Of a stretch of DNA of 22,293 nucleotides, positions 79 to 21,390 are shown in pieces. The notes beneath the pieces were generated by a model. The model was not told the DNA's origin, made no database searches, and saw only the letters and a list, made by a program, of their open reading frames with translations. This DNA comes from a virus. A program made the translations under genes and the position numbers. Where the stretch lies: positions 1-22,293 of the IMG/VR virus record IMGVR_UViG_3300032050_000885; one strand, given 5' to 3'. Position 1 is the first letter of the stretch; each line of letters starts with the position of its first letter.

Positions 79-525
79 ATGGCACATTTTGCAGAAGTAA
101 ACAGTTATGGTTTAGTATTAAGAGTAGTTGTTATTGATAATAATGACGTCAACGCAAACGGTGGTGATCAATCAGTTGGAGCTGAAGAAAAAGTTAAATC
201 TATAGTTCCTTTTACATCTGGTAACAGATGGGTTCAAACTTCTTATAACAATAATTTCAGAAAACAATACGCTGGAATTGGTTATACGTTTGATTCTGTT
301 AAAAACAAATTCATTGCACCTCAACCTTTTGCATCTTGGTCACTCGATGCTAATGACGACTGGCAAGCACCCGTTGCATATCCAACAGTTACAACTTATG
401 GAGATAATGTAAGATACAGGATTTCTTGGGATGAAGCTGGACAAAGATGGATTGGTAAAGACGATCAAAATAATTCATTCGCTTGGTCACCTGAAACTTC
501 ATCTTGGATTGCTACAGGCAATTAA
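79..525 (+). CDS. Conserved marine-phage structural protein, small
   Basis: 148 residues. The N-terminus (MAHFAEVNSYGLVLRVVVID) and the central RWVQTSYNNNFRKQYAGIGY block (residues 50-69), followed by a W-rich stretch (SWSLDANDDWQAP, 86-98), match from memory a small protein common in T4-like cyanophages and other marine phages, usually encoded near tail-fibre or neck genes and of unknown exact role. The C-terminal third repeats short W-containing units (ISWDEAGQRWIG, FAWSPETSSWIA), like a small beta-repeat. There is no signal peptide or membrane segment. The AGGAG at 65-69 supports the start. It lies 25 bases upstream of the glycine-rich fibre gene and is probably co-transcribed with it. A fibre-associated or head-tail accessory role is inference from position. 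Confidence 0.7.
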   Translation: MAHFAEVNSYGLVLRVVVIDNNDVNANGGDQSVGAEEKVKSIVPFTSGNRWVQTSYNNNFRKQYAGIGYTFDSVKNKFIAPQPFASWSLDANDDWQAPVAYPTVTTYGDNVRYRISWDEAGQRWIGKDDQNNSFAWSPETSSWIATGN

Positions 526-550: not shown

Positions 551-2353
551 ATGGGATCACCCAATGGCGGTATCATAGGCGTAGTCAATCCAACATCGTT
601 TGGAAAGTGTACTGTCACATCTAAAACGTCATCAAGCCCATTAACCACGCAACCTGGAACTAGAATTGCATCTGTTGCAGTTGTAGCTGGTGGAGGTGGG
701 GGAGGTGGATATGTTGGAGGTGGTGGAGCAGGTGGTTTAAGAACTTCAACGTGTATTTCAGTTTGTGGAGCAACAGCATATCCAGTAACAGTTGGTGGAG
801 GTGGAGCAGCAGGTGCTTCAACTCCTTTACCAGGTGCATCAGGAACAGATTCAACATTTTCAACAATCACTTCAGCAGGTGGAGGAGGAGGTGGACCTAT
901 TGGTCCAACAGCAGCTGGAGCTGCAGGAGGATCAGGTGGAGGAGGAAGAGGAACTGGAGTTGGAGGAGCAGGAAATACACCACCAGTTAGTCCATCACAA
1001 GGAAATACAGGTGGAACTGGAGCTACAGATTCTGCCACATTTACAACAGGTGGAGGAGGTGGAGGAGCAGGAGCTGTTGGTTCAAATGCTGTAACAAGTA
1101 CAGCTGGAGCAGGAGGAGCAGGAAGAGATTTAACACCAATTTTTGGACCAGGATTACCTAATTCAGGAATTTATGGTGGAGGTGGTGGAGGTGGAACTTG
1201 TCGTTGTGGCTCACCAGGAGGAGGTGGAGCAGGAGGAACTGGAGGTGGAGGTAATGGTACCAATACATCAGTTAATTGTGCAACAGCAGGAACTGCAAAT
1301 ACTGGAGGTGGTGGTGGAGGTGGTAGAGGATGTGCTACTGGTGTTGGAAAAGCCGGCGGTTCAGGAATCGTTATCGTAAAAGAATTAAACAAGGCCAGTG
1401 GATCGTGGCCGTTGAGTGCACAATTTAGAAGCAGGAAACAAGGAACGTGGCCAACACCACAAATTTCAGTTGACGTAGATTATTTAGTCGTGGCCGGTGG
1501 TGGCGGTGGAGGATTTAATCATGGTGGAGGTGGTGGAGCAGGTGGTTTTAGAACATCTTTCCCTGGTGGAACAAAATTAACATTAACAGGATATGGACCA
1601 TTTAGTACTCCAATTACTATTGGAGGAGGTGGTGCTGGTGGTGGACCAGCTGCTGCAGTAAGTGGAAGTCCATCAATTTTTTCAACAATTACAAGTACAG
1701 GTGGTGGTAAAGGAGGTGGACCACCTGGAGGACCAGGAAATGCTTCACCTGGTGGTTCAGGCGGAGGTGGATCAGGAGAAACAGTAGCAGGAGGATCTGG
1801 AACAGCAGGAACGGGTAATTCTCCTCCAACAAGTCCACCTCAAGGAAATACAGGAGGACTTGGATCAGCACCACAATCAAATGGATCAGCAGGAGGCGGA
1901 GGAGGAGCAGGTGGAGTAGGTTCAGATAGATCTGGATCTCAAGGAGGAAATGGAGGAGTAGGTTCTCCAAACGTAATTTATGACAGCCCAACAGTTGGAA
2001 CACCAGGTCCAGCTCCAGGAAGATATTTTGCAGGAGGTGGAGGAGGAAGTTCAAGTCCATGTGCTCCAACTTCAGGAACAGGTGGAGCAGGTGGTGGTGG
2101 AAATTCTGGCCCAACAAATCCTGGTGCTTGTGTTCAAGCTGGAACAGTTAATACAGGTGGAGGAGGTGGTGGAGGTCCTGGATATGGTAGTGGAGGAGCT
2201 GCCGGTGGATCGGGAATTGTTATTGTAAGAGCTCCAGGAGGAGCATCTATTGCAGCAAGTCCAGGTACAAACACAGTTACAACATTACCGGCACCAGCTG
2301 GAGGTTGTAAAGTGGCGGTATTCACGGTTTCTGGAGATTTAACGATAAGTTAA
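551..2353 (+). CDS. Glycine-rich tail fibre / adhesin with two tandem Gly-rich domains
   Basis: 600 residues. After about 40 residues of leader come two homologous glycine-rich domains: residues 40-278 and 309-561. Each opens with a VVAGGGGGG block and closes with GGSGIVIV(K/R). The linker (279-308) holds SGSWPLSAQFRSRKQGTWP, a W-containing spacer. A 39-residue non-Gly tail (562-600, ending FTVSGDLTIS) follows. Domain 1 contains Cys at 68, 72, 217, 219, 243 and 261; domain 2 has Cys 504 and 527. Phage adhesins rich in Gly runs, such as gp38 of the T4-like phage S16, fold into packed polyglycine-II helices and bind receptors; a similar role here is inferred. GGAG just upstream supports the ATG. 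Three 2OG-Fe(II) oxygenase genes follow directly. The open frames on the opposite strand and other frames here come from the GGN/GGA codon runs. Confidence 0.8.
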   Translation: MGSPNGGIIGVVNPTSFGKCTVTSKTSSSPLTTQPGTRIASVAVVAGGGGGGGYVGGGGAGGLRTSTCISVCGATAYPVTVGGGGAAGASTPLPGASGTDSTFSTITSAGGGGGGPIGPTAAGAAGGSGGGGRGTGVGGAGNTPPVSPSQGNTGGTGATDSATFTTGGGGGGAGAVGSNAVTSTAGAGGAGRDLTPIFGPGLPNSGIYGGGGGGGTCRCGSPGGGGAGGTGGGGNGTNTSVNCATAGTANTGGGGGGGRGCATGVGKAGGSGIVIVKELNKASGSWPLSAQFRSRKQGTWPTPQISVDVDYLVVAGGGGGGFNHGGGGGAGGFRTSFPGGTKLTLTGYGPFSTPITIGGGGAGGGPAAAVSGSPSIFSTITSTGGGKGGGPPGGPGNASPGGSGGGGSGETVAGGSGTAGTGNSPPTSPPQGNTGGLGSAPQSNGSAGGGGGAGGVGSDRSGSQGGNGGVGSPNVIYDSPTVGTPGPAPGRYFAGGGGGSSSPCAPTSGTGGAGGGGNSGPTNPGACVQAGTVNTGGGGGGGPGYGSGGAAGGSGIVIVRAPGGASIAASPGTNTVTTLPAPAGGCKVAVFTVSGDLTIS

Positions 2354-2398: not shown

Positions 2399-3037
2399 AT
2401 GAATCTACAGAATTATTATTACTATTTTCAAAGTGCACTCACACCTAGATTTTGTGATGAGTTAATTAAATATGGAATTGCACAGCAAGAACAATTAGCT
2501 CTTACTGGTGGTCAAACTGAAAAAATTAATAAAGGTAAAAATTTATCTGACGAAGATTTAAAAGATTTAAAAAAGAAAAGAGATTCAAATATTGTTTGGT
2601 TAAACGATCGTTGGATTTATAAAGAAATTCAACCATTTATACATCAAGCAAATAGATTAGCAGGTTGGAATTTTGATTGGGATTTCAGTGAGTCATGTCA
2701 ATTTACAAAATATAAATTAAATCAATTTTATGATTGGCATTGTGATAGTTGGGAAGCTCCATATGCAAATCCAGATAATAAAGACACTAATGGAAAAATT
2801 AGAAAATTATCTGTTACATGTTCCTTATCAGCACCAGAAGATTATGAAGGTGGAGAATTAGAATTTGATTTTAGAAATATGGATCCTGATAAACAATCAG
2901 TTAGAAAATGTGCTGAAATTAAACCACGTGGGAGTATAGTTGTATTTCCATCTCATGTATGGCATAGAGTTAAACCTGTAACGAAAGGAACAAGATATTC
3001 ATTGGTGATTTGGAACCTTGGATATCCATTTAGATAA
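2399..3037 (+). CDS. 2OG-Fe(II) oxygenase (PKHD / prolyl-4-hydroxylase-like)
   Basis: 212 residues, close to the usual size of PKHD-type hydroxylases. Members use 2-oxoglutarate, O2 and Fe(II) to hydroxylate a substrate. The double-stranded beta-helix motifs are visible: YDWHCDSW gives the HxD iron pair (H114, D116), FPSHVWHRV gives the distal iron ligand H189, and GTRYSLVIW gives R199, the expected 2-oxoglutarate carboxylate binder. Strand GGELEF (151-156) is also typical. The next Met is residue 161, which would cut off the HxD motif, and an in-frame stop lies just upstream at 2381-2383, so the start at 2399 is well supported despite the lack of a ribosome binding site. The stop overlaps the next start (TAATG). 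First of three neighbouring oxygenase-type genes. The substrate is unknown; the adjacent Gly/Pro-rich fibre is one candidate. Confidence 0.88.
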   Translation: MNLQNYYYYFQSALTPRFCDELIKYGIAQQEQLALTGGQTEKINKGKNLSDEDLKDLKKKRDSNIVWLNDRWIYKEIQPFIHQANRLAGWNFDWDFSESCQFTKYKLNQFYDWHCDSWEAPYANPDNKDTNGKIRKLSVTCSLSAPEDYEGGELEFDFRNMDPDKQSVRKCAEIKPRGSIVVFPSHVWHRVKPVTKGTRYSLVIWNLGYPFR

Positions 3038-3732
3038 TGGCAAAAACAGATCAATTACAAGCTTCAGTTTATTTTAGTTCACCAGTCTATTCTATAGAAA
3101 TTCCAGAATGGGTAGATGATACAAATAAGATTTGTGATAAATATATTAAAGACGCAAAGAAGAATAATGCAAAAATTATTAAAGAACGAGAAAAGAAATT
3201 TGGTAAAAAAATAGGAGATCATGGAATGAGTTATCATTCTACATCTTTAGTTGGAGATCCTGCTTTAAAAGAATTACAAGATTATATCGGAGCAACTAGT
3301 TGGAATTGTCTAGATCATATGGGATATGATTTAACTAACTATGAATTATTTTGGACTGAATTCTGGGTACAGGAATTTGGTGAAAAAGGCGGCGGGCATC
3401 ACGAAGGACATATGCACTATGATAACCATATATCTGGTTTTTATTTTTTAAAATGTAGTGAAAAAACTTCAATGCCTGTTTTCCACGATCCAAGACCAGC
3501 TAAACTAATTACACAATTACCATTAAAAGATGAAAAAGAAATTACTTTAGGAACACATCAAATTCATTACCGACCAAAACCAGGTACAATGATATTCTTT
3601 CCAGCTTACATGGAACATCAATATGTGGTAGATGATGGTGTAGAACCTTTTAGATTTATACATTTTAATCTACAAGCTGTGAGAAGAATGATTACAGATA
3701 CTGTAAGAAAACAAACTAAAGGAGAAGTATGA
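3037..3732 (+). CDS. 2OG-Fe(II) oxygenase of the PF13759 / TIGR02466 type
   Basis: 231 residues. The segment HMHYDNHISGFYFL (125-138) corresponds to the family pattern H.Hpns.lSGvyYl and supplies HxD (H127, D129). FHDPRPA (149-155) matches the conserved dPR element. GTMIFFPAYMEHQY (183-196) holds the distal His (H194), and EPFRFIHFNLQ (203-213) holds the 2-oxoglutarate-binding Arg (R206). The catalytic set is therefore complete. The N-terminal 60 residues are lysine-rich and probably helical. It starts inside the stop of the previous oxygenase (TAATG) with no clear ribosome binding site, so translation is probably coupled. Its stop overlaps the next start by ATGA. The sequence family differs from the preceding gene, so this is not a simple tandem duplication. 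Substrate unknown. Confidence 0.85.
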   Translation: MAKTDQLQASVYFSSPVYSIEIPEWVDDTNKICDKYIKDAKKNNAKIIKEREKKFGKKIGDHGMSYHSTSLVGDPALKELQDYIGATSWNCLDHMGYDLTNYELFWTEFWVQEFGEKGGGHHEGHMHYDNHISGFYFLKCSEKTSMPVFHDPRPAKLITQLPLKDEKEITLGTHQIHYRPKPGTMIFFPAYMEHQYVVDDGVEPFRFIHFNLQAVRRMITDTVRKQTKGEV

Positions 3733-4385
3733 GTTTTAAGAAAAATAAATATGCAATTATAAAAGGAGCGATATCAGAGGATCTTGCTAAATTTTGTTAT
3801 GATTATTTCATGATGAAAAGAAAAGTTGCAAGAACAATGTTTGATACAAAATACATTAGTCAATTTACTGAATATTTTGGCGTGTGGAACGATGCTCAAG
3901 TTCCAGAAACATATTCACATTATTCTGATATTGTAATGGAAACATTACTTGTAAAATTACTTCCTATCATGGAAGAGACAACAGGATTAAAATTAAATTC
4001 AAATTATTCTTACGCTAGAATTTATAAAAAAGGAGATGTATTACATCGTCATAAAGATAGATTCAGTTGTGAGATATCTACAACTATGCATTTAGGTGGT
4101 GGTTGTTGGCCAATATATTTAGAACCAGATGCATCACAAGGTGGTGTAGATGAAAAGACTGGTAATTACAAACCATCAAAAGCTAAAGGTGTTAAAGTAA
4201 TGTTAGAGCCAGGTGATATGTTAGTATATCGTGGAAATGAATTAGAACATTGGAGAGAAAAATTAACCTTTGATGATTGTGGTCAAGTATTCTTACATTA
4301 CAATAATGTTGAAACTAAAGGATCTAAAGAAAATATATACGATCGTAGACCTCATTTAGGACTTCCCGCTTGGTTTAAAAAGTGA
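3729..4385 (+). CDS. Third 2OG-Fe(II) oxygenase-like protein
   Basis: 218 residues. YARIYKKGDVLHRHKDRFSC (residues 95-114) carries an HxD pair (H108, D110), and MLEPGDMLVYRGNELEHWRE (158-177) carries the likely distal His (H174), the layout of a 2OG-Fe(II) double-stranded beta-helix. About twelve residues after H174, where the two neighbours have or approach the 2-oxoglutarate-binding Arg, this protein has Gln (CGQVFLHYNN, Q186). From memory a group of phage and bacterial homologues also reads QVFLHY, so this may be a family trait rather than decay, with another residue binding the cosubstrate. An AAAGGAG site at 3718-3724 precedes the ATG, which overlaps the previous stop. Last gene of the oxygenase operon, followed by an 89-base gap with hairpins. 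Oxygenase fold likely; activity less certain. Confidence 0.75.
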   Translation: MSFKKNKYAIIKGAISEDLAKFCYDYFMMKRKVARTMFDTKYISQFTEYFGVWNDAQVPETYSHYSDIVMETLLVKLLPIMEETTGLKLNSNYSYARIYKKGDVLHRHKDRFSCEISTTMHLGGGCWPIYLEPDASQGGVDEKTGNYKPSKAKGVKVMLEPGDMLVYRGNELEHWREKLTFDDCGQVFLHYNNVETKGSKENIYDRRPHLGLPAWFKK

Positions 4386-4392
4386 TATAGAA

Positions 4393-4439
4393 TCCTCTTA
4401 CTAGAGGAGCTTACCACCAATTCTACCTCAAGCTCCTCT
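4393..4439 (+). promoter_or_regulatory. Alternative hairpins in the leader between oxygenase and structural genes
   Basis: AGAGGAGCTT (4403-4412) is perfectly complementary to AAGCTCCTCT (4430-4439), giving a 10-bp stem with a 17-nt loop. The same AGAGGA (4403-4408) can instead pair with TCCTCT (4393-4398) around a 4-nt loop. The two structures exclude each other, as in attenuators. There is no U-run right after the long stem, so it is not a standard terminator; it may pause polymerase, protect an mRNA end or be a processing site. Confidence 0.6.
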
Positions 4440-4474: not shown

Positions 4475-6652
4475 ATGCCACTACAAAAGATACAATTTAA
4501 ACCTGGATTTAATAAACAACAAACTGCAACCGGAGCCGAAGGGCAATGGATTGATGGTGATAATATAAGATTTCGTTATGGTGAACCACAGAAAATAGGT
4601 GGATACCAGCAACTCGTCTCTAGCACCTTAGCAGGTCCTGCACGAGACCAGCATACTTGGACAGCATTAGATGGTAAAAAATATGCAGCAATCGGTACTT
4701 CAAAATTATTAGTTATTTATTATGAAGGTTCTTTTTATGATATTACACCCCTTGATACTGCACTAACATCTTGTACTTATACATCAACAACAGGATCATC
4801 AACTGTTACAATTACTAAAGCAGCGCATGGATTAGAGGTAGGAGATTATTTAATATTTTCTGCAGCAACAACACCAGGATCGCCTACTACAAGTTATACA
4901 TCAGCAAGTTTTACAACAAACGTTTTTGAAGTTAAATCAGTTCCTACATCAGGTACTTTTACACTTACGATGCCATCTAATGAGTCAGGCACAGGTGTTA
5001 CTGCAGGTGGAAATTTAACAGTGGATCCTTATATTTCTATTGGGCCAACATTTCAAACTCCAGCCTTTGGTTATGGTACAGGATATTGGGGTGGAACTAT
5101 TCCAACTTCAGCTACCACATTATTAGATGGAGCTATTAATAATGCAGTTACAACAATTACTGTAGATTCTACAGCCGCGTTTCCAACATCGGGTCGAATA
5201 GATATTGATACAGAATTAATTACTTATTCAGGTAAAACTGCAACTCAATTTTTAGGATGCACTAGAGGTGCAAATGGATCAACAGCTGCATCTCATTCAG
5301 ATAATGCAACCGTTACAAATGCAACAAGTTGGGTTGATTGGGGAGAAGAATCAAATACTGCAGGTGTGATATTAGCGCCAGGTTCTTGGTCAATTGATAA
5401 TTATGGACAGATTTTAGTTGCAACAGTTAAGAATGGTAAAACATTTACTTGGGACCCTTCTATTCCTTTAAGATTATTAACAAGGGCAACCGTTGTTGCA
5501 AATGCTCCAACAGCTTCAATTATGAGTGTTGTATCAGATAGAGATAGACATTTATTCTTAATGGGAACAGAAACAACCATTGGAGATCCATCAACACAAG
5601 ACCCGATGTTTATAAGATTTTCAAATCAAGAAGATATTAATACTTGGAATCCAACGGTGACTAATACTGCAGGAACATTCAGGCTAGATACGGGCAACGA
5701 GATTATAGGAGCAATACAAGGTAAAGATTACATCTTTGTTTTAACAGATCAGGCAGCATATACTATTCAATTTGTTGGCCCTCCATTTACATTTTCAGTT
5801 AGACAAGTTGGAACTAATTGCGGTTGTATTGGTCAACATGCAATGGTGTTTGCACAAGGAGCAGTCTTCTGGATTGGATTTGGTGGTGGATTCTTTGCAT
5901 TTGATGGAACGGTAAAACAATTACCATCACTTGTTGAAGACTTTGTATTTACAGATACTGGGGACAATTTAGGAATTAACTATGATGCAAGTCAAATTAC
6001 TTTTGCTTATCACAATTCATTATTTAATGAAGTTGGTTGGTTTTATGCAAAAGCAGGTTCAACTCAATTAGATAGAAACGTTGTTTATAATTTTGTTGAA
6101 AATACTTGGGCCGTTGGATCTTTAACTAGAACAACTTATAATGATGCAACAACTTTTGATTTACCTTATGCCACACAATACAATGCAACAGCCACACCAA
6201 CTTTTCCAACAATTAATGGTGTAAGTAATTTACCAGGTTCAACTAAATACTGGGAACATGAAATAGGTGTTAATGAAGTAGATGCAAATGGTAATCAAAC
6301 AGCAATAGCTGCTTATATTAAATCAGGAGATTACGATATATCAGAACAAGGATTAGGCGGAGATGGTCAATTAATAATGCGTGTTAAACGATTTATTCCA
6401 GACTTTAAAAGTTTAGAAGGCAATGCAAAGATAACTTTATTCTTTAGAGACTATCCAGCAAATAGTGAATCAACTCCTTCTACAACACCACCATTAATTA
6501 CAGGACCTTTTACAATTACATCTTCAACTGATAAAGTAGATACGCGCGTGCGAGGAAGACAGGTAAGTTTAAAAATAGAAAATGATGCAGTGGGTGAAAC
6601 TTGGAGATATGGAACTTTGAGATTAGATATTGAAGCAGGCGGAAGAAGATAA
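4475..6652 (+). CDS. Virion structural protein, tail/DNA-stabilisation type
   Basis: 725 residues. The opening MPLQKIQFKPGFNKQQTATG and GDNIRFRYGEPQKIGGYQ resemble a widespread podovirus and prophage structural protein that begins with FKPGi.re.T..egg and kvRFR.G.PekigGw. Two inserted beta-rich modules are visible: about 99-188 (TSTTGSSTVTITKAAHGLEVGDYL) and about 213-283 (TTLLDGAINNAVTTITVDST through GCTRGANGSTAASHSDNATV), the latter a module seen in many phage tail proteins. The remainder has repeated W/G-rich blade-like segments (FVLTDQAAYTIQFVGPPFTF, VFWIGFGGGFFAFDG), suggesting a beta-propeller-like tail or hub body. No signal peptide. Its stop overlaps the next start by TAATG. First gene of the second structural operon. 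Exact virion position is not determined from sequence. Confidence 0.7.
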   Translation: MPLQKIQFKPGFNKQQTATGAEGQWIDGDNIRFRYGEPQKIGGYQQLVSSTLAGPARDQHTWTALDGKKYAAIGTSKLLVIYYEGSFYDITPLDTALTSCTYTSTTGSSTVTITKAAHGLEVGDYLIFSAATTPGSPTTSYTSASFTTNVFEVKSVPTSGTFTLTMPSNESGTGVTAGGNLTVDPYISIGPTFQTPAFGYGTGYWGGTIPTSATTLLDGAINNAVTTITVDSTAAFPTSGRIDIDTELITYSGKTATQFLGCTRGANGSTAASHSDNATVTNATSWVDWGEESNTAGVILAPGSWSIDNYGQILVATVKNGKTFTWDPSIPLRLLTRATVVANAPTASIMSVVSDRDRHLFLMGTETTIGDPSTQDPMFIRFSNQEDINTWNPTVTNTAGTFRLDTGNEIIGAIQGKDYIFVLTDQAAYTIQFVGPPFTFSVRQVGTNCGCIGQHAMVFAQGAVFWIGFGGGFFAFDGTVKQLPSLVEDFVFTDTGDNLGINYDASQITFAYHNSLFNEVGWFYAKAGSTQLDRNVVYNFVENTWAVGSLTRTTYNDATTFDLPYATQYNATATPTFPTINGVSNLPGSTKYWEHEIGVNEVDANGNQTAIAAYIKSGDYDISEQGLGGDGQLIMRVKRFIPDFKSLEGNAKITLFFRDYPANSESTPSTTPPLITGPFTITSSTDKVDTRVRGRQVSLKIENDAVGETWRYGTLRLDIEAGGRR

Positions 6653-8067
6653 TGGCAAAGATAACGGCATATATACCAGAGCCTACACAGAATTATGATG
6701 TTAATAATCAAAGACAAATACTTGAAGCAATTAATACAATTAAAGATCAACTTAACTTTGGATATCAACAAGATTTAATTAATCAACAATCTGCTATGAC
6801 ACAATTTATATATGGAACACAATCTGGATCTTTCTGTCCACAACAGCCTATTGAAATAGCAGGTGGATCAGGTTCTACTGCTTATGATGCATTTGGAAGA
6901 CTTAGAATATCTGAACCTTTTACATTATTTGATTCACAAAATAGATATGCAGAAGATGATCAATTTAGTTCATCTACTACAGGATCAGGATCTTCAGTTA
7001 CATTTGCTACAAATGAATCTTCAGTAAACATGAATGTTGGTACAGTATCCGGTGGCAAAACTGTAAGACAAACATTTAGAAGAATGCCATATCAACCTGG
7101 TAAAAGTTTACTTATTCTTACGACTTTTTGTATGAATGCAGCTAAAGCAAATCTTAGACAAAGAATTGGTTATTTTGATGAAAACAATGGTATTTATTTA
7201 GAACAAAATGGATTATCTGAACCATCAATTACAATAAGAACAAATACATCAGGTACTCCTTCTAATGCAAATACAGTATCACAATCTAGTTGGAATGGAG
7301 ATAAATTAAATGGAACAGGACCTAGTGGAATTAGTTTAGATTTAGATGCAGTTCAAATATTTTGGTCAGATATAGAATGGTTAGGAGTTGGTAATGTTAG
7401 ATGCGGATTTGTTATTAATGGAGCATTTATAGTTTGTCATACTTTTCAATGTGCAAACCAAACTGGAAGAACAAAAGTATATATGGAAACAGCTATACTT
7501 CCGGTTAGATATGAAATTGAAAATACAGATACAACAGCAGATGCTTCTACATTAAAACAAATTTGTTCAACTGTTATTTCAGAAGGTGGTTATCAACAAA
7601 CTGTTCAAGATACTATTGCAAGAAGAACTGCATTACTTGGTACTATTTCAACTACATTTTTACCTCTTGTATCTATTAGACTTAAATCAACAGCTGCAGG
7701 TGCAGTTGTATTATTAAATAGAGTAAACGTATTACCTACAACAAATCAAAATTATGAAATATGCATTATGAAAAATTCTACATTAACAGGAGCTTCTTGG
7801 ACATCTTTATCAACTAATATGGAATATGATGTAACTGCTACCGCAATGACAACTTCTGTTGATGGTATTTATCAAAATGATTATGTAACATCATCTGCAC
7901 AAGGAAGAGCAGTATTAGCAGCTCCAACAGGATATAACTTTGCATATCAATTAGGAACATCTTTAGCTGGAGTATCTGATACATTTACATTAGGAATTAG
8001 AGTAGTATCTGGTGCAACTACAGGAGATGCATTAGGATCAATTTCATTTTACGACTTAACGGTATAA
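6652..8067 (+). CDS. Virion structural protein (marine-phage family)
   Basis: 471 residues. It contains the block AYDAFGRLRISEPFTLFDSQ (residues 78-97), which I recall from virion proteins of several marine phage groups where it precedes a jelly-roll-like domain. The rest alternates hydrophobic and Thr/Ser/Gly-rich beta strands. There are Gln/Asn-rich segments at 10-55, with probable helix at 20-50, and no membrane segment. The start overlaps the upstream stop (TAATG), downstream of GGAAGAAG, which could act as a weak ribosome binding site. The following gene begins one base after its stop. A receptor-binding, tail-tip or decoration role is possible, but the sequence alone does not decide. 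Confidence 0.65.
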   Translation: MAKITAYIPEPTQNYDVNNQRQILEAINTIKDQLNFGYQQDLINQQSAMTQFIYGTQSGSFCPQQPIEIAGGSGSTAYDAFGRLRISEPFTLFDSQNRYAEDDQFSSSTTGSGSSVTFATNESSVNMNVGTVSGGKTVRQTFRRMPYQPGKSLLILTTFCMNAAKANLRQRIGYFDENNGIYLEQNGLSEPSITIRTNTSGTPSNANTVSQSSWNGDKLNGTGPSGISLDLDAVQIFWSDIEWLGVGNVRCGFVINGAFIVCHTFQCANQTGRTKVYMETAILPVRYEIENTDTTADASTLKQICSTVISEGGYQQTVQDTIARRTALLGTISTTFLPLVSIRLKSTAAGAVVLLNRVNVLPTTNQNYEICIMKNSTLTGASWTSLSTNMEYDVTATAMTTSVDGIYQNDYVTSSAQGRAVLAAPTGYNFAYQLGTSLAGVSDTFTLGIRVVSGATTGDALGSISFYDLTV

Positions 8068-8410: not shown

Positions 8411-8591
8411 TCTACCAAAGATAGAATGTCAGACAGTAGAAATTATTAAAAGTAAGAAAACAGGAAAGACTTATAATAATATGGAAGACTTCTTAAAAGA
8501 AAATAAAATTGAAGATTTACAAAAAGATTTAGCAGTTACTATTACAAATAAAGGTTTAGAGTTATTAGAGAAAGTAATGAATCAAAAATGA
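8403..8591 (+). CDS. Hypothetical small protein (62 aa)
   Basis: 62 residues, not recognised. It is lysine- and glutamate-rich with a predicted helical C-terminal half (NMEDFLKENKIEDLQKDLAV, then KGLELLEKVMNQK) after a short beta-like start (IECQTVEIIKSKKTGKTYNN). Size and content suit a small soluble adaptor or chaperone-like protein. ACAGGAGAAA just before the ATG is a good ribosome binding site, and tight overlaps on both sides (8 bases upstream, 4 bases ATGA downstream) support that it is real. It sits directly before two glycosyltransferases, so an accessory role there, or in virion assembly, is conceivable only. Confidence 0.55.
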   Translation: MDNLPKIECQTVEIIKSKKTGKTYNNMEDFLKENKIEDLQKDLAVTITNKGLELLEKVMNQK

Positions 8592-9523
8592 ATCCAAGAG
8601 GTGGTACAGAATTACAAGTAGAGTTATTGCATAAATATGCAGATAAAAATTTATTAGATAAAGTACAAATAACTACATCTGTACCAGAGAAAGTACCCTT
8701 ACATCCAACTAAACCAAATATACTTTGGCAACAAAATTCATATGATCAAGCAAATCTAGCACCATGGTTTCAAAATAAAGATAATCATAAAAAATATGAT
8801 TGGTATGTATTTAACTCACATTGGTGTTATGAAAAATTTAGAATGATGTTTGATATACCAACAGATAGATGTTTGGTTATTAAAAATGCAATAGATAAAT
8901 TAGAGTCTAGAAAATTAGAACATATTAAAGGAGATCCGGTAAAATTAATTTATACTTCAACGCCGTGGCGAGGATTAAATGTATTACTTGCTGCAATGCA
9001 ACTTGTTAAAAATACATCTGTTCATTTAGATGTTTATTCATCAACTCAAGTATATGGAGATCAATTTAAATCAGCTAATGATGATAAATTTCAAGGATTA
9101 TATAATCAAGCTGCTGCATTAAAGAATGTTAGTTATGTTGGATATAAGCCAAATGAATTTATAAAGGATAATTTAAAAAATTATCATATGTTTATATATC
9201 CAAACATTTGGGAAGAAACGTCTTGTATTGCAGCAATAGAAGCTATGGCTGCAGGATTATATTGTGTAACTACTGATTATGGTGCTTTATATGAAACAGG
9301 TTCTGAATTTATAACTTATGTTCCATTTGAAAAAGATTATATAAAACTAGCTCATACATTTGCATCAGTCATTGATGTAGCTGCAGATAGACTTGGAGAT
9401 AGTGGTGTTAAAGATCATTTAAGAATGCAAATAGATTTTACAAACAAGTTCTATTCTTGGGATTTAAGAAAAAACATTTGGAATAGATTTTTACAAGGAG
9501 TGGTCAATGCAGGACGCAAGTAA
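8588..9523 (+). CDS. Glycosyltransferase, GT-B fold (GT4-like)
   Basis: 311 residues, shorter than the usual 350-400 of GT4 enzymes because the N-terminal Rossmann domain is trimmed. It begins MNPRGGTELQ, matching the GGtE loop near the N-terminus of GT4-type enzymes. The C-terminal nucleotide-sugar domain is clear: LIYTSTPWRGLNVLLAAMQL (residues 120-139), then WEETSCIAAIEAMAAGLYCV (208-227) with the E-x7-E pair E210/E218, which contacts the donor. It should transfer a sugar from an activated donor to an unidentified acceptor. It starts in an ATGA overlap with the previous gene and overlaps the next glycosyltransferase by 17 bases. The position within virion genes suggests glycosylation of a virion protein; host surface glycan alteration is an alternative. 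Confidence 0.82.
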   Translation: MNPRGGTELQVELLHKYADKNLLDKVQITTSVPEKVPLHPTKPNILWQQNSYDQANLAPWFQNKDNHKKYDWYVFNSHWCYEKFRMMFDIPTDRCLVIKNAIDKLESRKLEHIKGDPVKLIYTSTPWRGLNVLLAAMQLVKNTSVHLDVYSSTQVYGDQFKSANDDKFQGLYNQAAALKNVSYVGYKPNEFIKDNLKNYHMFIYPNIWEETSCIAAIEAMAAGLYCVTTDYGALYETGSEFITYVPFEKDYIKLAHTFASVIDVAADRLGDSGVKDHLRMQIDFTNKFYSWDLRKNIWNRFLQGVVNAGRK

Positions 9524-10376
9524 GCCTATTTGGTTTAAAACAGAAACAAACGACTTTACTACAAAATTAAAGGAACCAGAAACGAGGATCTATGTAGCAA
9601 CTCCGGTTCATAGTGAATGTTCAATTCATTACACACAAGCATTATTAAAGTTTCAACAAAACTGTATGATGAATGGAATTATGGTTTCATTCTCACTTCT
9701 TAAATCATCTTTAGTTACACAAGGAAGAAACTTATGTGTTGCTAACTTTTTAGGAGATCCTGGTAATTATACACATATGTTATTTATAGATTCAGATATT
9801 GATTTTAAATTTGACACTATTATTAAGATGTTAAAGTTTAATAAGGAAGTGATAGCAACCCCTTATCCTATGAAACATATTCATTGGGATCAAATATGGG
9901 AAAGATTACAAAAAGGTAAAATTAAAGATAAAGATGAATTAATGAGAGCTGGATTTATTTATCCAATAAAGATGGATGGTATTGTAGATGATACTAAAAA
10001 AGAAATAAGTGTAGTAGATGGTTTAATAGAAGTCTCGCACGCGCCCACGGGATGTATGTTAATTAAAAGACAAGTATTTGATAAGATGATTAAAGCATAT
10101 CCAGATGATAGAATAGATCAAGCGACAATCGTAAATGGAGAAGCTAAAACTAATCCATATATGTACAATTTCTTTGACACAGTTCATGATCCACAATCTA
10201 AAAAGTATTACGGAGAAGACTTTGGATTCTGTAAAAAATGGACTGCAATTGGTGGAAAATGTTATTGTTATATAGATGATTTTATAACACACGTCGGCGA
10301 ATACCAATATAATGGTAGATTAAAAGACAATTTAGAATTTGTTAAAACCGTTGACGACCAACAGAAAAACAAGTAA
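9507..10376 (+). CDS. Glycosyltransferase, GT-A fold (GT2-like)
   Basis: 289 residues. RIYVATPVHS (27-36) starts a GT-A Rossmann-type domain, VTQGRNLCVANFL (70-82) follows, and MLFIDSDIDF (91-100) carries a D-x-D (D95/D97) for metal and nucleotide-sugar binding. A later YGEDFGFCKKW (235-245) matches the acidic ED catalytic motif of GT2-like enzymes, and THVG (261-264) could supply the metal-binding His found in related enzymes. It is therefore probably active. AAGGAG at 9495-9500 gives a strong ribosome binding site inside the 3' end of the previous gene. The paired GT-B and GT-A genes suggest two successive sugar additions. Acceptor unknown. Confidence 0.8.
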   Translation: MQDASKPIWFKTETNDFTTKLKEPETRIYVATPVHSECSIHYTQALLKFQQNCMMNGIMVSFSLLKSSLVTQGRNLCVANFLGDPGNYTHMLFIDSDIDFKFDTIIKMLKFNKEVIATPYPMKHIHWDQIWERLQKGKIKDKDELMRAGFIYPIKMDGIVDDTKKEISVVDGLIEVSHAPTGCMLIKRQVFDKMIKAYPDDRIDQATIVNGEAKTNPYMYNFFDTVHDPQSKKYYGEDFGFCKKWTAIGGKCYCYIDDFITHVGEYQYNGRLKDNLEFVKTVDDQQKNK

Positions 10377-18772: not shown

Positions 18773-19345
18773 ATGAATAAAGTTTTAGTACATAAACATC
18801 TTATCATAAGAGCAGAAGCAAAAAATCCTCCAATGGATGTCGCTGTTCTTCGCAAGTGGTTTCAAAAATTTATAAATGAAATAGGTATGAAAGTTATGAT
18901 GGGTCCTTATATTAAATATTCTCACATGGTTGGTAATCGTGGAATTACCGGAGCTGCAATCATAGAAACATCTCATATTGTAATGCATGTATGGGATGAA
19001 CCTGACCCCGCCTTGCTGCAGTTTGATGTTTATTCCTGCGGCGAATTTGATCCTGAAACAATATGCAACAAAATTAAAAAAGATTTTAATACTACAAAAA
19101 TAGAATACAAATTTTTAGATCGTGAACATGATCTACAAGAAATACATACATTAACGTACACAGATCCAATAGTTAAAAATTATGAGAATAGAGAAATAGA
19201 AAAGAAAAATAATGCATTATTAAAAAGTAGAAAAGAAGTTGAGATTAATGGTAGTGGTACACACGGATATAGAATCAAAGAAGGTATTCACAAAGGTACA
19301 GTTGTTGGCCATATTACTAGAGAAAAATCAGTACTTGAAAATTAA
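18773..19345 (+). CDS. speD: S-adenosylmethionine decarboxylase-like protein (SpeD family)
   Basis: 190 residues. SpeD converts S-adenosylmethionine to its decarboxylated form, the aminopropyl donor for spermidine, and uses a pyruvoyl group made by self-cleavage before an internal Ser. The core GITGAAIIETSHIVMHVWDE (57-76) with LQFDVYSCG (82-90) matches the family (gvSG...eSHi.iHtWPE, then DvftCG): Ser67 is the predicted pyruvoyl precursor, His68 and His72 follow, and Cys89 is the expected catalytic Cys. The residue before Ser67 is Thr; it is Glu in many short SpeD proteins and Lys in E. coli. A lysine-rich C-terminal extension of about 60 residues makes it longer than the usual 120-130-residue form. 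SpeD-like genes are known auxiliary metabolic genes of marine phages. Decarboxylase activity is likely but not certain. There is no strong ribosome binding site. Confidence 0.78.
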   Translation: MNKVLVHKHLIIRAEAKNPPMDVAVLRKWFQKFINEIGMKVMMGPYIKYSHMVGNRGITGAAIIETSHIVMHVWDEPDPALLQFDVYSCGEFDPETICNKIKKDFNTTKIEYKFLDREHDLQEIHTLTYTDPIVKNYENREIEKKNNALLKSRKEVEINGSGTHGYRIKEGIHKGTVVGHITREKSVLEN

Positions 19346-19369
19346 TAAATAATCTTTATATATCTTCCA

Positions 19370-19391
19370 GACTGCATCATGTGGATGAGTC
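19370..19391 (+). promoter_or_regulatory. Leader hairpin upstream of hsp20
   Basis: GACT-G-CATC (19370-19378) can pair with GATGAGTC (19384-19391) with one bulged G and a five-base ATGTG loop, giving an 8-bp stem. It lies about 30 bases before the hsp20 start and does not sequester the AAAGGAG site (19408-19414), so a simple thermosensor is not indicated. Confidence 0.35.
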
Positions 19392-19420
19392 AATTAACTT
19401 GCTTAACAAAGGAGATAATT

Positions 19421-19843
19421 ATGACAAACCTAGAAGTTTTCAATAATTTAAGCAAACAAATGTTCAATGGATCAACAAAATTTTTTGATGATGCTTTTGA
19501 AAATATTTTTGACACGTGGTCAAAAGTACAATCATTTCCATTCTACAACGTAGTAAAATACTCAAAAGGTAAATACGGATTAGAAATCGGTTTAGCTGGC
19601 TACAACAAAGAAAATGTTCTTGTAGAAGTTAAAGATGGTATTTTAACAGTAGAAGGAAAAGTAGATAACAAAAATGTAGACTATGTTAAACAGGGTCTTG
19701 CATTTAGAAAATTTTTCAAACAGTTTGAATTAGCTAAAGATGTAGTAGTTGATGAAGCTGAAATGAAAGATGGTTTATTAAAAATAAAACTTGGTTACAA
19801 AGAACCAAAAGAAGTTGAAGGTATTAAAGTAGATATTAAATAA
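19421..19843 (+). CDS. hsp20: Small heat-shock protein, Hsp20 / alpha-crystallin family
   Basis: 140 residues from the chosen ATG at 19421, which follows a strong AAAGGAG site (19408-19414). An in-frame ATG at 19379 would add 14 residues but has no ribosome binding site and overlaps the leader hairpin. The alpha-crystallin domain spans about 36-140: FPFYNVVKYSKGKYGLEIGL, AGYNKENVLVEVKDGILTVE, then LAFRKFFKQFELAKDVVVDE and AEMKDGLLKIKL, which fits the A-x-x-x-G-x-L signature. The terminus EGIKVDIK resembles the I-x-I/V tail that links oligomers. Hsp20 proteins hold unfolding proteins in an ATP-independent way; in marine phages they are known auxiliary genes and may help virion protein folding. 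The stop overlaps a 27-residue reading frame (TAATG). Confidence 0.9.
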   Translation: MTNLEVFNNLSKQMFNGSTKFFDDAFENIFDTWSKVQSFPFYNVVKYSKGKYGLEIGLAGYNKENVLVEVKDGILTVEGKVDNKNVDYVKQGLAFRKFFKQFELAKDVVVDEAEMKDGLLKIKLGYKEPKEVEGIKVDIK

Positions 19844-19926
19844 TGAGTATACCTTTACAATTAACATTTATTTTTATAGTCGCTGTTATAATTTTAACAG
19901 CAGTTATTTACAATAATTATAAATAA
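19843..19926 (+). CDS. 27-residue single-span membrane peptide
   Basis: The reading frame begins in a TAATG overlap with the hsp20 stop and encodes MSIPLQLTFIFIVAVIILTA followed by VIYNNYK. Residues about 6-23 form one hydrophobic span, with a short polar lysine-containing end predicted on the cytoplasmic side. The tight coupling, the same junction type as other genes here, and the clean membrane topology support a real gene despite its small size. A small holin, antiholin or host-membrane effector are possibilities; nothing in the sequence selects one. Confidence 0.5.
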   Translation: MSIPLQLTFIFIVAVIILTAVIYNNYK

Positions 19927-19942
19927 TGTTCCCTTACAATGA

Positions 19943-19972
19943 GGAGGAGTGGAAATTTATATCCACTCCTTC
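19943..19972. terminator. Hairpin at the convergent gene junction
   Basis: AGGAGTGGA (19945-19953) and TCCACTCCT (19962-19970) form a perfect 9-bp stem with an 8-nt loop, extendable by a G-U and a G-C pair to 19943-19972. It lies where the plus-strand hsp20 unit meets the minus-strand helicase gene and covers the helicase stop codon. It could serve as a two-way termination or 3'-end protection structure. Neither side has a T-run, so it is not a textbook intrinsic terminator. Confidence 0.5.
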
Positions 19973-21390
19973 AACTCTTCTCCCATAATTTGAGTTGCAA
20001 TATCAACTTTAGTTCTTAAAGCTTTTACAATTTTTTCATCAACAGTTCCTTCAGCTATAATATCAATATAAGTCATTGGTTTTTCTTGACCAATACGATC
20101 AATCCTAGCTTCTGATTGTTGACGTTTTTCTAAGTCATATCCATTAGAATAATAAATCATAGTAGATGCACCTGTTAATGTAATTCCATATCCACCTGTT
20201 TGAGGTGTGCCTACAATAAATCTTACCGGACTATTTGGATCTTGAATTAGTTTAATTGCTTTCTGTCTATCATCTGTAGATGTATCTCCATAATAAGTAA
20301 CAACAGAATTATCTCCATATTCTTTTTTAATAGCTTCAACAATAACTTCTATATCATATCTATAATGAGCCCATATAACTGCTTTACCCTCCATTTCAGA
20401 TAAAACATCCATCAATTCATCTAGTCTATTACTTGCAATCTTTTGTGTTTGACCATCATCAGATTTAAAATGACCACAAGTTATTTGATGTAATCTCATT
20501 AATTGAGTTATAACATTATGCGTTGTAGTTAATTTTCCATTTAATGTTGCAAGTGCAATTTCTTTCATTTGTTTATAAACTTTTCTTTGTTCTTCTGTTA
20601 ATTGAATAGTTCTTTTCATATAAGTTTTAGGTGGTAAATCTAAACAATCATCTTTTAAAACTCTATGTGAGAATGGTTTTATTTTTTCTGAAAGCTCTGG
20701 TAGGTTTCTATATCCCACTACAATTTGAATCATACGACCAGATACATTTATTTGTTTTGTAATAGCGTATCTAGTTTTAAATGAATAATAAGATTGATGA
20801 TCTAATAACCATGGATCTAAAAAAGCACATTGAGTAAATAAATCTAAAGGAGATTTGGTTACCGGCGATCCTGTTAAGATTCTTTTGTATTTAACATCTT
20901 TACCTAAATCTATAATAGATTTAGTTCTAATTGCGCCTGGATTTTTTATTGTAGTAGATTCATCTATTGCCATTAAAGTTTTGTGACAACTTAAAAATTT
21001 TTCTGCAAATTGTTTTCCTTTTTTAGTAGACAATGCTTCAACATTCATAATTAAAATATGAAGATCATAACTGGATTTAAATAATATATTTAATTCTTTT
21101 TCTTTAGATTTACTTGCAGTGGACTCCCATAATACCATTTTCTTTTCTATATGATCTGGCATATGGGTTGGTATTTCAGAGTCAAACCAGTTCTTATAAA
21201 CACCTTTAGGAGCTATAATTAAGGCGCCATTTATAAGGCCTTTATCATAAAGCATTGACATATTATCTATTAATACTTTAGACTTACCGGTCCCCATTTC
21301 CATAAAATAAGCAAATACTTTCTTATCCCAAGACATTTCTAATGCCTTTAATTGATGTGCAAATGGCTTTGTCTTAAACTTATAATGCAT
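19957..21390 (-). CDS. SNF2-family DNA helicase / translocase
   Basis: 477 residues. Superfamily 2 motifs appear in order: HQ of FAHQLKALEM as a Q-like motif (10-19); Walker A EMGTGKSKV (31-39, K36); motif Ia LIIAPKGVYKNW (57-68); Walker B IDEST (142-146, D143/E144); motif III LTGSP (172-176); then the C-terminal lobe with AVIWAHY (337-343), VTYYGDTSTDDR (364-375), and motif VI QSEARIDRIGQ (425-435, R429/R432). The RIGQ ending is typical of SNF2 proteins such as those annotated SNF2/DEAD-like in phages. It should be an ATP-driven DNA translocase acting in replication, recombination or remodelling. It is the only clear minus-strand gene, convergent with hsp20 and divergent from the next gene, with its own promoter. 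Only a weak purine-rich AGAAAG precedes the start. Confidence 0.88.
   Translation of the reverse strand: MHYKFKTKPFAHQLKALEMSWDKKVFAYFMEMGTGKSKVLIDNMSMLYDKGLINGALIIAPKGVYKNWFDSEIPTHMPDHIEKKMVLWESTASKSKEKELNILFKSSYDLHILIMNVEALSTKKGKQFAEKFLSCHKTLMAIDESTTIKNPGAIRTKSIIDLGKDVKYKRILTGSPVTKSPLDLFTQCAFLDPWLLDHQSYYSFKTRYAITKQINVSGRMIQIVVGYRNLPELSEKIKPFSHRVLKDDCLDLPPKTYMKRTIQLTEEQRKVYKQMKEIALATLNGKLTTTHNVITQLMRLHQITCGHFKSDDGQTQKIASNRLDELMDVLSEMEGKAVIWAHYRYDIEVIVEAIKKEYGDNSVVTYYGDTSTDDRQKAIKLIQDPNSPVRFIVGTPQTGGYGITLTGASTMIYYSNGYDLEKRQQSEARIDRIGQEKPMTYIDIIAEGTVDEKIVKALRTKVDIATQIMGEELKEWI

Follow-up and report, generated by a model that had tools for sequence, protein, structure and literature searches.

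Coupled 2-oxoglutarate-type oxygenase genes in an exchangeable enzyme island among the virion genes of a pelagiphage-like virus

Phages that carry several 2-oxoglutarate (2OG)-type oxygenase genes have been described before. S-SZBM1 has nine copies (PMC9146016), and co-located 2OG genes are found in HTVC023P-type pelagiphages (PMC9599517). S-CREM1 encodes eight 2OG enzymes and a JmjC protein consecutively, S-SM1 and S-RSM4 have tandem arrays, and the SAR11 myoviruses HTVC008M and Mosig carry homologues of two of the genes studied here (ox1 and ox3) among about five consecutive 2OG-type genes. Three coupled oxygenases are therefore not unusual, and the multiplicity of such genes in phages is already known; the initial annotation of our locus had regarded only single ones as known, whereas cyanophage and pelagiphage tandem arrays reach about nine. 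One family that recurs at these loci, phrog_2954, is named 'ferrochelatase' in two papers and in databases. In HTVC023P-type pelagiphages it was read as a ferrochelatase partner of the co-located 2OG genes (PMC9599517), and another paper took 'ferrochelatase' and 2OG genes together to be auxiliary metabolic genes that are enriched seasonally (PMC11561400).

We analyzed a virus record from IMG/VR with a length of 22,293 bases (the window). Three oxygenase-type genes lie downstream of g148 and a fibre-like gene and upstream of two structural genes, as follows.

79..525, plus strand: g148, a phrog_7759 protein (MAHFA...), left border of the island
551..2353, plus strand: glycine-rich fibre-like protein with two PF21722 repeats (E=2.5e-34), phrog_2295
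2399..3037, plus strand: ox1, 2OG-Fe(II) oxygenase, PF13640/PKHD-like, phrog_61; predicted motif H114-x-D116, H189, R199
3037..3732, plus strand: ox2, TIGR02466/PF13759 oxygenase-fold protein, phrog_81, exchangeable; H125-x-H127, H194, R206
3729..4385, plus strand: ox3, phrog_2954, named 'ferrochelatase', predicted double-stranded beta-helix (DSBH) 2OG-type oxygenase; H108-x-D110, H174
4403..4439, plus strand: stem-loop with a 10-bp stem and a conserved ACCACC...loop, closing the island (z=-3.8)
4475..6652, plus strand: vs725, virion structural protein phrog_3287 (1.5e-81), right border of the island
6652-8067: phrog_1645 structural gene

The open reading frames of ox1, ox2, and ox3 are intact and of full length (212, 231, and 218 amino acids). 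The genes are consecutive and translationally coupled, with a TAATG junction between ox1 and ox2 (3035-3039) and an ATGA overlap between ox2 and ox3 (3729-3732), just as initially annotated. In relatives, 173 of 177 ox1-ox2 junctions and 189 of 195 ox2-ox3 junctions fall within 10 bp, and overlaps are normal here. The proximity to a fibre gene also holds, the trio being part of a structural-gene operon next to the glycine-rich fibre-like gene. As for the stem-loop, an Rfam search of the window gave no match; relatives keep the ACCACC...loop while, by eye, their stems have changed and still pair, and a TATAAT-like stretch follows it in relatives. Elsewhere in the window, two consecutive genes lie downstream of the structural genes (8588-10376), and one of their HTVC023P homologues is annotated as a glycosyl transferase group 1 protein. 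In the region 18773-21390, inspection by eye suggested resemblance to S-adenosylmethionine decarboxylase (18773-19345) and Hsp20 (19379-19843) and a SNF2-type helicase-like open reading frame on the minus strand (19957-21390).

The ox1 product matches PF13640 (E=1.3e-17; 64.9 bits, cut-off 27), and its profile matches in the PDB are PKHD hydroxylases (3dkq/PiuC) and a prolyl 4-hydroxylase. H114, D116, H189, and R199 are invariant in all 291 sequences. With a best score of 60.6 bits it falls far under the NCBIfam YbiX/PKHD equivalog cut-off of 143 bits, and at the level of sequence its relation to the PKHD-type hydroxylases YbiX and PiuC is one of resemblance only. The ox2 product matches PF13759 (8.8e-13; 49 bits, cut-off 27) and, by profile, PDB entries 3bvc and 2rg4, solved structures of uncharacterized TIGR02466 proteins; it scores 63.5 bits against TIGR02466, above the curated cut-off of 62.5. 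We know of no function for that family. H125, H127, H194, and R206 are kept in 214 to 215 of 215 relatives and are invariant where present. In contrast, D129, two residues past H127, is Asn in 159 of the 215, so that the conserved motif of ox2 is HxH and the carboxylate ligand of an HxD motif was not found. Hence, the HxD plus distal His that had been ascribed to all three proteins is present in ox1 and ox3, whereas ox2 has the distal His (H194) behind HxH. Pairwise profile-profile alignment (hhalign) detected no homology between ox1, ox2, and ox3, with probabilities of 0.1 to 8%; by this measure they really are three different subfamilies, as the initial annotation had it, and all three come out as DSBH oxygenases by profile or model.

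The identity of ox3 deserves closer attention. Its only PHROG matches are phrog_2954 and phrog_3531, both named 'ferrochelatase', and sequence searches of Pfam, NCBIfam, and the PDB gave no significant match. An AlphaFold (AF2) model built on a 47-sequence alignment showed a double-stranded beta-helix (pLDDT, 96.6; pTM, 0.91). Foldseek returned 596 PDB matches for this model at an E value of ≤0.001, with Pseudomonas putida prolyl 4-hydroxylase first and Dictyostelium PHD, PHD2, EctD, SnoN, and HygX among the best; the top 50 of the 596 consist of 2OG-type oxygenases together with related DSBH proteins. Viral structure matches comprise 2OG oxygenases and the S-SM1 'ferrochelatase' itself. Because TM-scores to PDB entries are moderate (0.5 to 0.6), the modeled ox3 resembles prolyl hydroxylases in fold, which does not prove a shared function. 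H108, D110, and H174 are invariant in 308 of 308 sequences, and so are R97, R111, C114, W127, R176, Q186, H190, and Y191. The use of 2OG by ox3 is putative, as the protein has no Arg or Lys about 10 residues past the distal His, the usual 2OG-binding place; conceivably, the invariant R97, R111, R176, Q186, and H190 could act as substitutes. The AlkB-type 2OG model PF13532 is matched weakly by 5 of 47 family members (best E value, 0.012).

That ox3 might be a true ferrochelatase, supplying haem as a partner of iron enzymes, was considered and rejected. It is suggested by annotation only (the phrog_2954/3531 and RefSeq names) and by the heme oxygenase and PcyA genes found in Mosig and three sampled loci, and we regard it as highly improbable. 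None of the 47 family members matches the ferrochelatase model PF00762 at an E value of ≤1, and against this idea also stand the DSBH fold, the invariant 2OG-type metal motif, and the fusion of ox3 to a 2OG domain described below. Given the predicted DSBH fold and the lack of a PF00762 match, the ferrochelatase name of phrog_2954 is wrong at the level of the modeled fold. We found no published correction of the name, which is no proof that there is none. If phrog_2954 is an oxygenase, its supposed role in haem biosynthesis disappears and a tailoring pathway is indicated instead. The family is nearly absent from cellular genomes: a search of 84,980 gave 18 matches, and several of these look phage-like. 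Divergent relatives on long contigs of Rubrivivax and Mucilaginibacter metagenome-assembled genomes (L332 and L333) are possibly cellular or from prophages.

Other names in these loci merit a similar remark. Members of phrog_274 ('DNA endonuclease V') and phrog_2297 ('DNA endonuclease') match PF13640 at up to 37 bits (cut-off 27) at L160:5499-6008, L084:12242-12724, L086:10663-11175, and L352:2114-2623, and judging from these matches the endonuclease names also look wrong. Likewise, a phrog_1644 'minor coat protein' inside an oxygenase island (L260:6687-7349) has strong DUF6445 and weak 2OG-model matches.

How firmly are the three genes linked? Their order is identical in the cultured phages HTVC033P and HTVC023P and in genome 023Pt_psg01. 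Scans seeded with an ox gene found ox1 in 65 of 65, 56 of 56, and 55 of 56 loci and ox3 in 36 of 36, values that are inflated by the choice of an ox gene as the starting point. Since sampling seeded with ox3 or ox1 is biased, we used the downstream structural gene (vs725) as an ox-independent seed, keeping 51 islands with a visible left end or at least 7.5 kb of upstream sequence. Both ox1 and ox3 were present in 24 of these, ox1 only in 5, ox3 only in none, and neither in 22 (Fisher test, 9e-10, with relatedness ignored), while ox2 was present in 7 and the number of recognized 2OG genes per island varied from 0 to 7. A fixed ox1-ox2-ox3 trio is thus rejected on the frequency of ox2; judged by the initial annotation's own test of independent occurrence in related genomes, ox2 drops out of the trio, whereas ox1 and ox3 do travel together. 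Moreover, in S-SCSM1 a single protein of 453 amino acids combines an ox3 domain (phrog_2954, residues 5 to 178) with an ox1 domain (phrog_61, residues 264 to 452). Similar fusions occur in S-SCSM2R, S-T4 (where the match is longer than the gene model), and the ACG-2014f lineage. This one-way dependence, together with the fusion, suggests that ox3 works with ox1 or on its product. A multi-step or multi-substrate pathway, as put forward in the initial annotation, remains the best reading in light of the fusions, the absence of ox3 without ox1, and the halogenase, sulfotransferase, and carbamoyltransferase genes that accompany them, with the fixed trio removed from it.

The trio is located in an exchangeable enzyme island that has g148 on one side and the phrog_3287 structural gene on the other. 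Among 259 ox-seeded loci, at least three 2OG genes were found in 93% and at least four in 53%, frequencies that are lower bounds for the enzymes on incomplete contigs. Recurring members are a Trp halogenase (PF04820), a sulfotransferase (PF13469), and a carbamoyltransferase, along with APS-kinase-like and cytidylyltransferase-like genes, methyltransferases, and a GNAT. Several relatives have no recognized enzyme at all in the stretch from g148 to the structural gene. In about 20 loci an endonuclease VII-type HNH gene, perhaps a homing element, is inserted exactly between ox1 and ox2 (e.g., L022:2649-3218 and L081:3004-3447). Possibly, a row of sulfotransferase, APS-kinase-like, and cytidylyltransferase-like genes (L046:5882-7351, L065:1665-3617, and L080:5341-6810) represents a phage-borne sulfate activation set.

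What might the island do? We favor a late-expressed tailoring pathway that acts on a virion protein, to which we assign a probability of roughly 45%. The ox1, ox2, and ox3 products would be non-haem-iron 2OG-type oxygenases, made late from the virion operon of an HTVC023P-type pelagiphage-like podovirus, as their operon position suggests. With ox1 and ox3 as the functional core, the prolyl/PKHD-hydroxylase-like ox1 would probably oxidize a side chain first and ox3 would then act with it or on its product, while ox2 and the swappable enzymes (further 2OG enzymes, Trp halogenase, sulfotransferase, and carbamoyltransferase) may add or vary further groups. The likeliest substrate would be a virion protein, probably the neighboring fibre or a fibre-associated protein, and the outcome a variable exposed chemistry of the adsorption apparatus.

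We prefer virion protein tailoring because g148 and a structural gene bracket the island, because g148 adjoins or directly follows fibre-type or structural genes in most unrelated phages viewed, because the enzymes are of the kinds expected in a decorating pathway and are exchanged rapidly, and because comparable clusters are found next to fibre or neck genes in several further groups of phages. The latter are unrelated myoviruses: the 2OG runs of HTVC008M and Mosig and the S-RSM4 cluster lie beside fibre/neck genes, the S-SCSM1 array adjoins tail fibres, that of Sf-FR1, which comes with a Trp halogenase, has tail-fibre genes on one side and neck genes on the other, and in S-CAM8 and S-MS29 a carbamoyltransferase-2OG-'ferrochelatase' row is directly followed by a g148 homologue. 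Other locations argue against it. No annotated fibre genes adjoin the S-CREM1 array, one 'ferrochelatase' gene of Syn30 is in the replication module, and the fused ox3-ox1 genes of ACG-2014f and S-T4 lie outside fibre modules, adjoining ribonucleotide reductase, NAD synthetase, and CpeT in the former and a helicase in the latter. As a candidate substrate g148 itself was rejected, which likewise counts against virion protein tailoring: its conserved Pro/Trp motifs are kept in islands without any 2OG gene, so that no substrate signature distinguishes islands with oxygenases from those without, and its confidently modeled fold had no match in the PDB.

Alternatively, the island enzymes could act on small molecules or proteins of the host, in auxiliary metabolism or host takeover, with their place in the late operon incidental; they might hydroxylate translation factors or reshape 2OG/succinate and iron pools. 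A Pseudomonas prolyl hydroxylase hydroxylates EF-Tu, and the closest PDB match of ox3, the P. putida enzyme, has also been solved in complex with EF-Tu. The fused ACG-2014f gene among metabolic genes fits such a role, as does published work that treats 2OG and 'ferrochelatase' genes as auxiliary metabolic genes (PMC9599517, PMC11561400) or connects the 2OG gene of HTVC027P with iron uptake by the host (PMC12753301). We nevertheless consider this possibility less likely than virion protein tailoring: g148 and the structural gene bracket the site even when it is devoid of recognized enzymes, the rapid turnover of island enzymes is unlike a conserved metabolic need, and halogenase, sulfotransferase, and carbamoyltransferase suit tailoring better.

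Lower still do we rate a scheme in which a small precursor (a modified amino acid or sugar) is produced or altered by the oxygenases and then transferred to the virion or the host envelope by the glycosyltransferases encoded downstream. Glycosyltransferase-like genes (8588-9523 and 9507-10376) belong to the same operon and are found downstream again in relatives, and some islands have sulfotransferase, APS-kinase-like, and cytidylyltransferase-like genes; however, structural genes separate the glycosyltransferase genes from the island and no sugar-nucleotide pathway was seen in the window. AlkB/TET-like modification or repair of phage DNA seems more improbable again. The weak PF13532 matches of ox3 relatives would fit it, and cyanophage 2OG enzymes beside uvsW/uvsY have been proposed to act in repair (PMC9146016), yet the island lies among virion genes, no DNA hypermodification gene was recognized in it, and the ox1 and ox3 matches indicate prolyl hydroxylase types.

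Extending virion protein tailoring beyond this locus, it is possible, though less likely than not, that abundant marine phages share a modular system with RiPP-like logic, in which a core of ox1 and then ox3, together with exchangeable hydroxylases, halogenases, sulfotransferases, and carbamoyltransferases, chemically decorates fibre proteins of the phage itself, so that adsorption can be varied or recognition evaded. Our literature searches returned nothing relevant on fibre hydroxylation by phage 2OG enzymes or on 2OG-halogenase-sulfotransferase islands, which does not prove absence. The island picture bears on why marine phages have so many 2OG oxygenases, a question it makes directly testable on cultured phages. 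What makes the present analysis useful is a corrected annotation for a widespread phage family, the dependence of ox3 on ox1, and the view of the locus as a tailoring island.

Compared with known enzymes, ox1 shares both the fold and the HxD...H...R motif with PKHD-type and prolyl 4-hydroxylases (YbiX, PiuC, and P. putida P4H), whereas ox3 has only the fold in common with them. A viral flavin-dependent halogenase is on record (Gkotsi et al. 2019, as cited in PMC10452541). Trp halogenase homologues occur in islands of the same kind as ours, with none in the window. To our knowledge, the viral halogenase has no known native substrate. The tandem arrays of T4-like cyanophages (S-SM1, S-RSM4, S-CREM1, S-SCSM1, Sf-FR1, and S-MS29) likewise line up genes of several 2OG subfamilies, phrog_61 and/or phrog_2954 among them; several arrays lie beside fibre/neck genes and some have a halogenase or carbamoyltransferase. 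They differ in being larger, in belonging to myoviruses, and in being partly elsewhere in the genome, whereas the window has the minimal ox1-ox2-ox3 set in a podovirus-like late operon. Closest are the HTVC023P-type pelagiphages (HTVC023P, HTVC033P, and 023Pt_psg01), which share the three genes and their order. In contrast to the published reading of these phages (PMC9599517), we read ox3 as one more oxygenase, the third, within a broader tailoring island.
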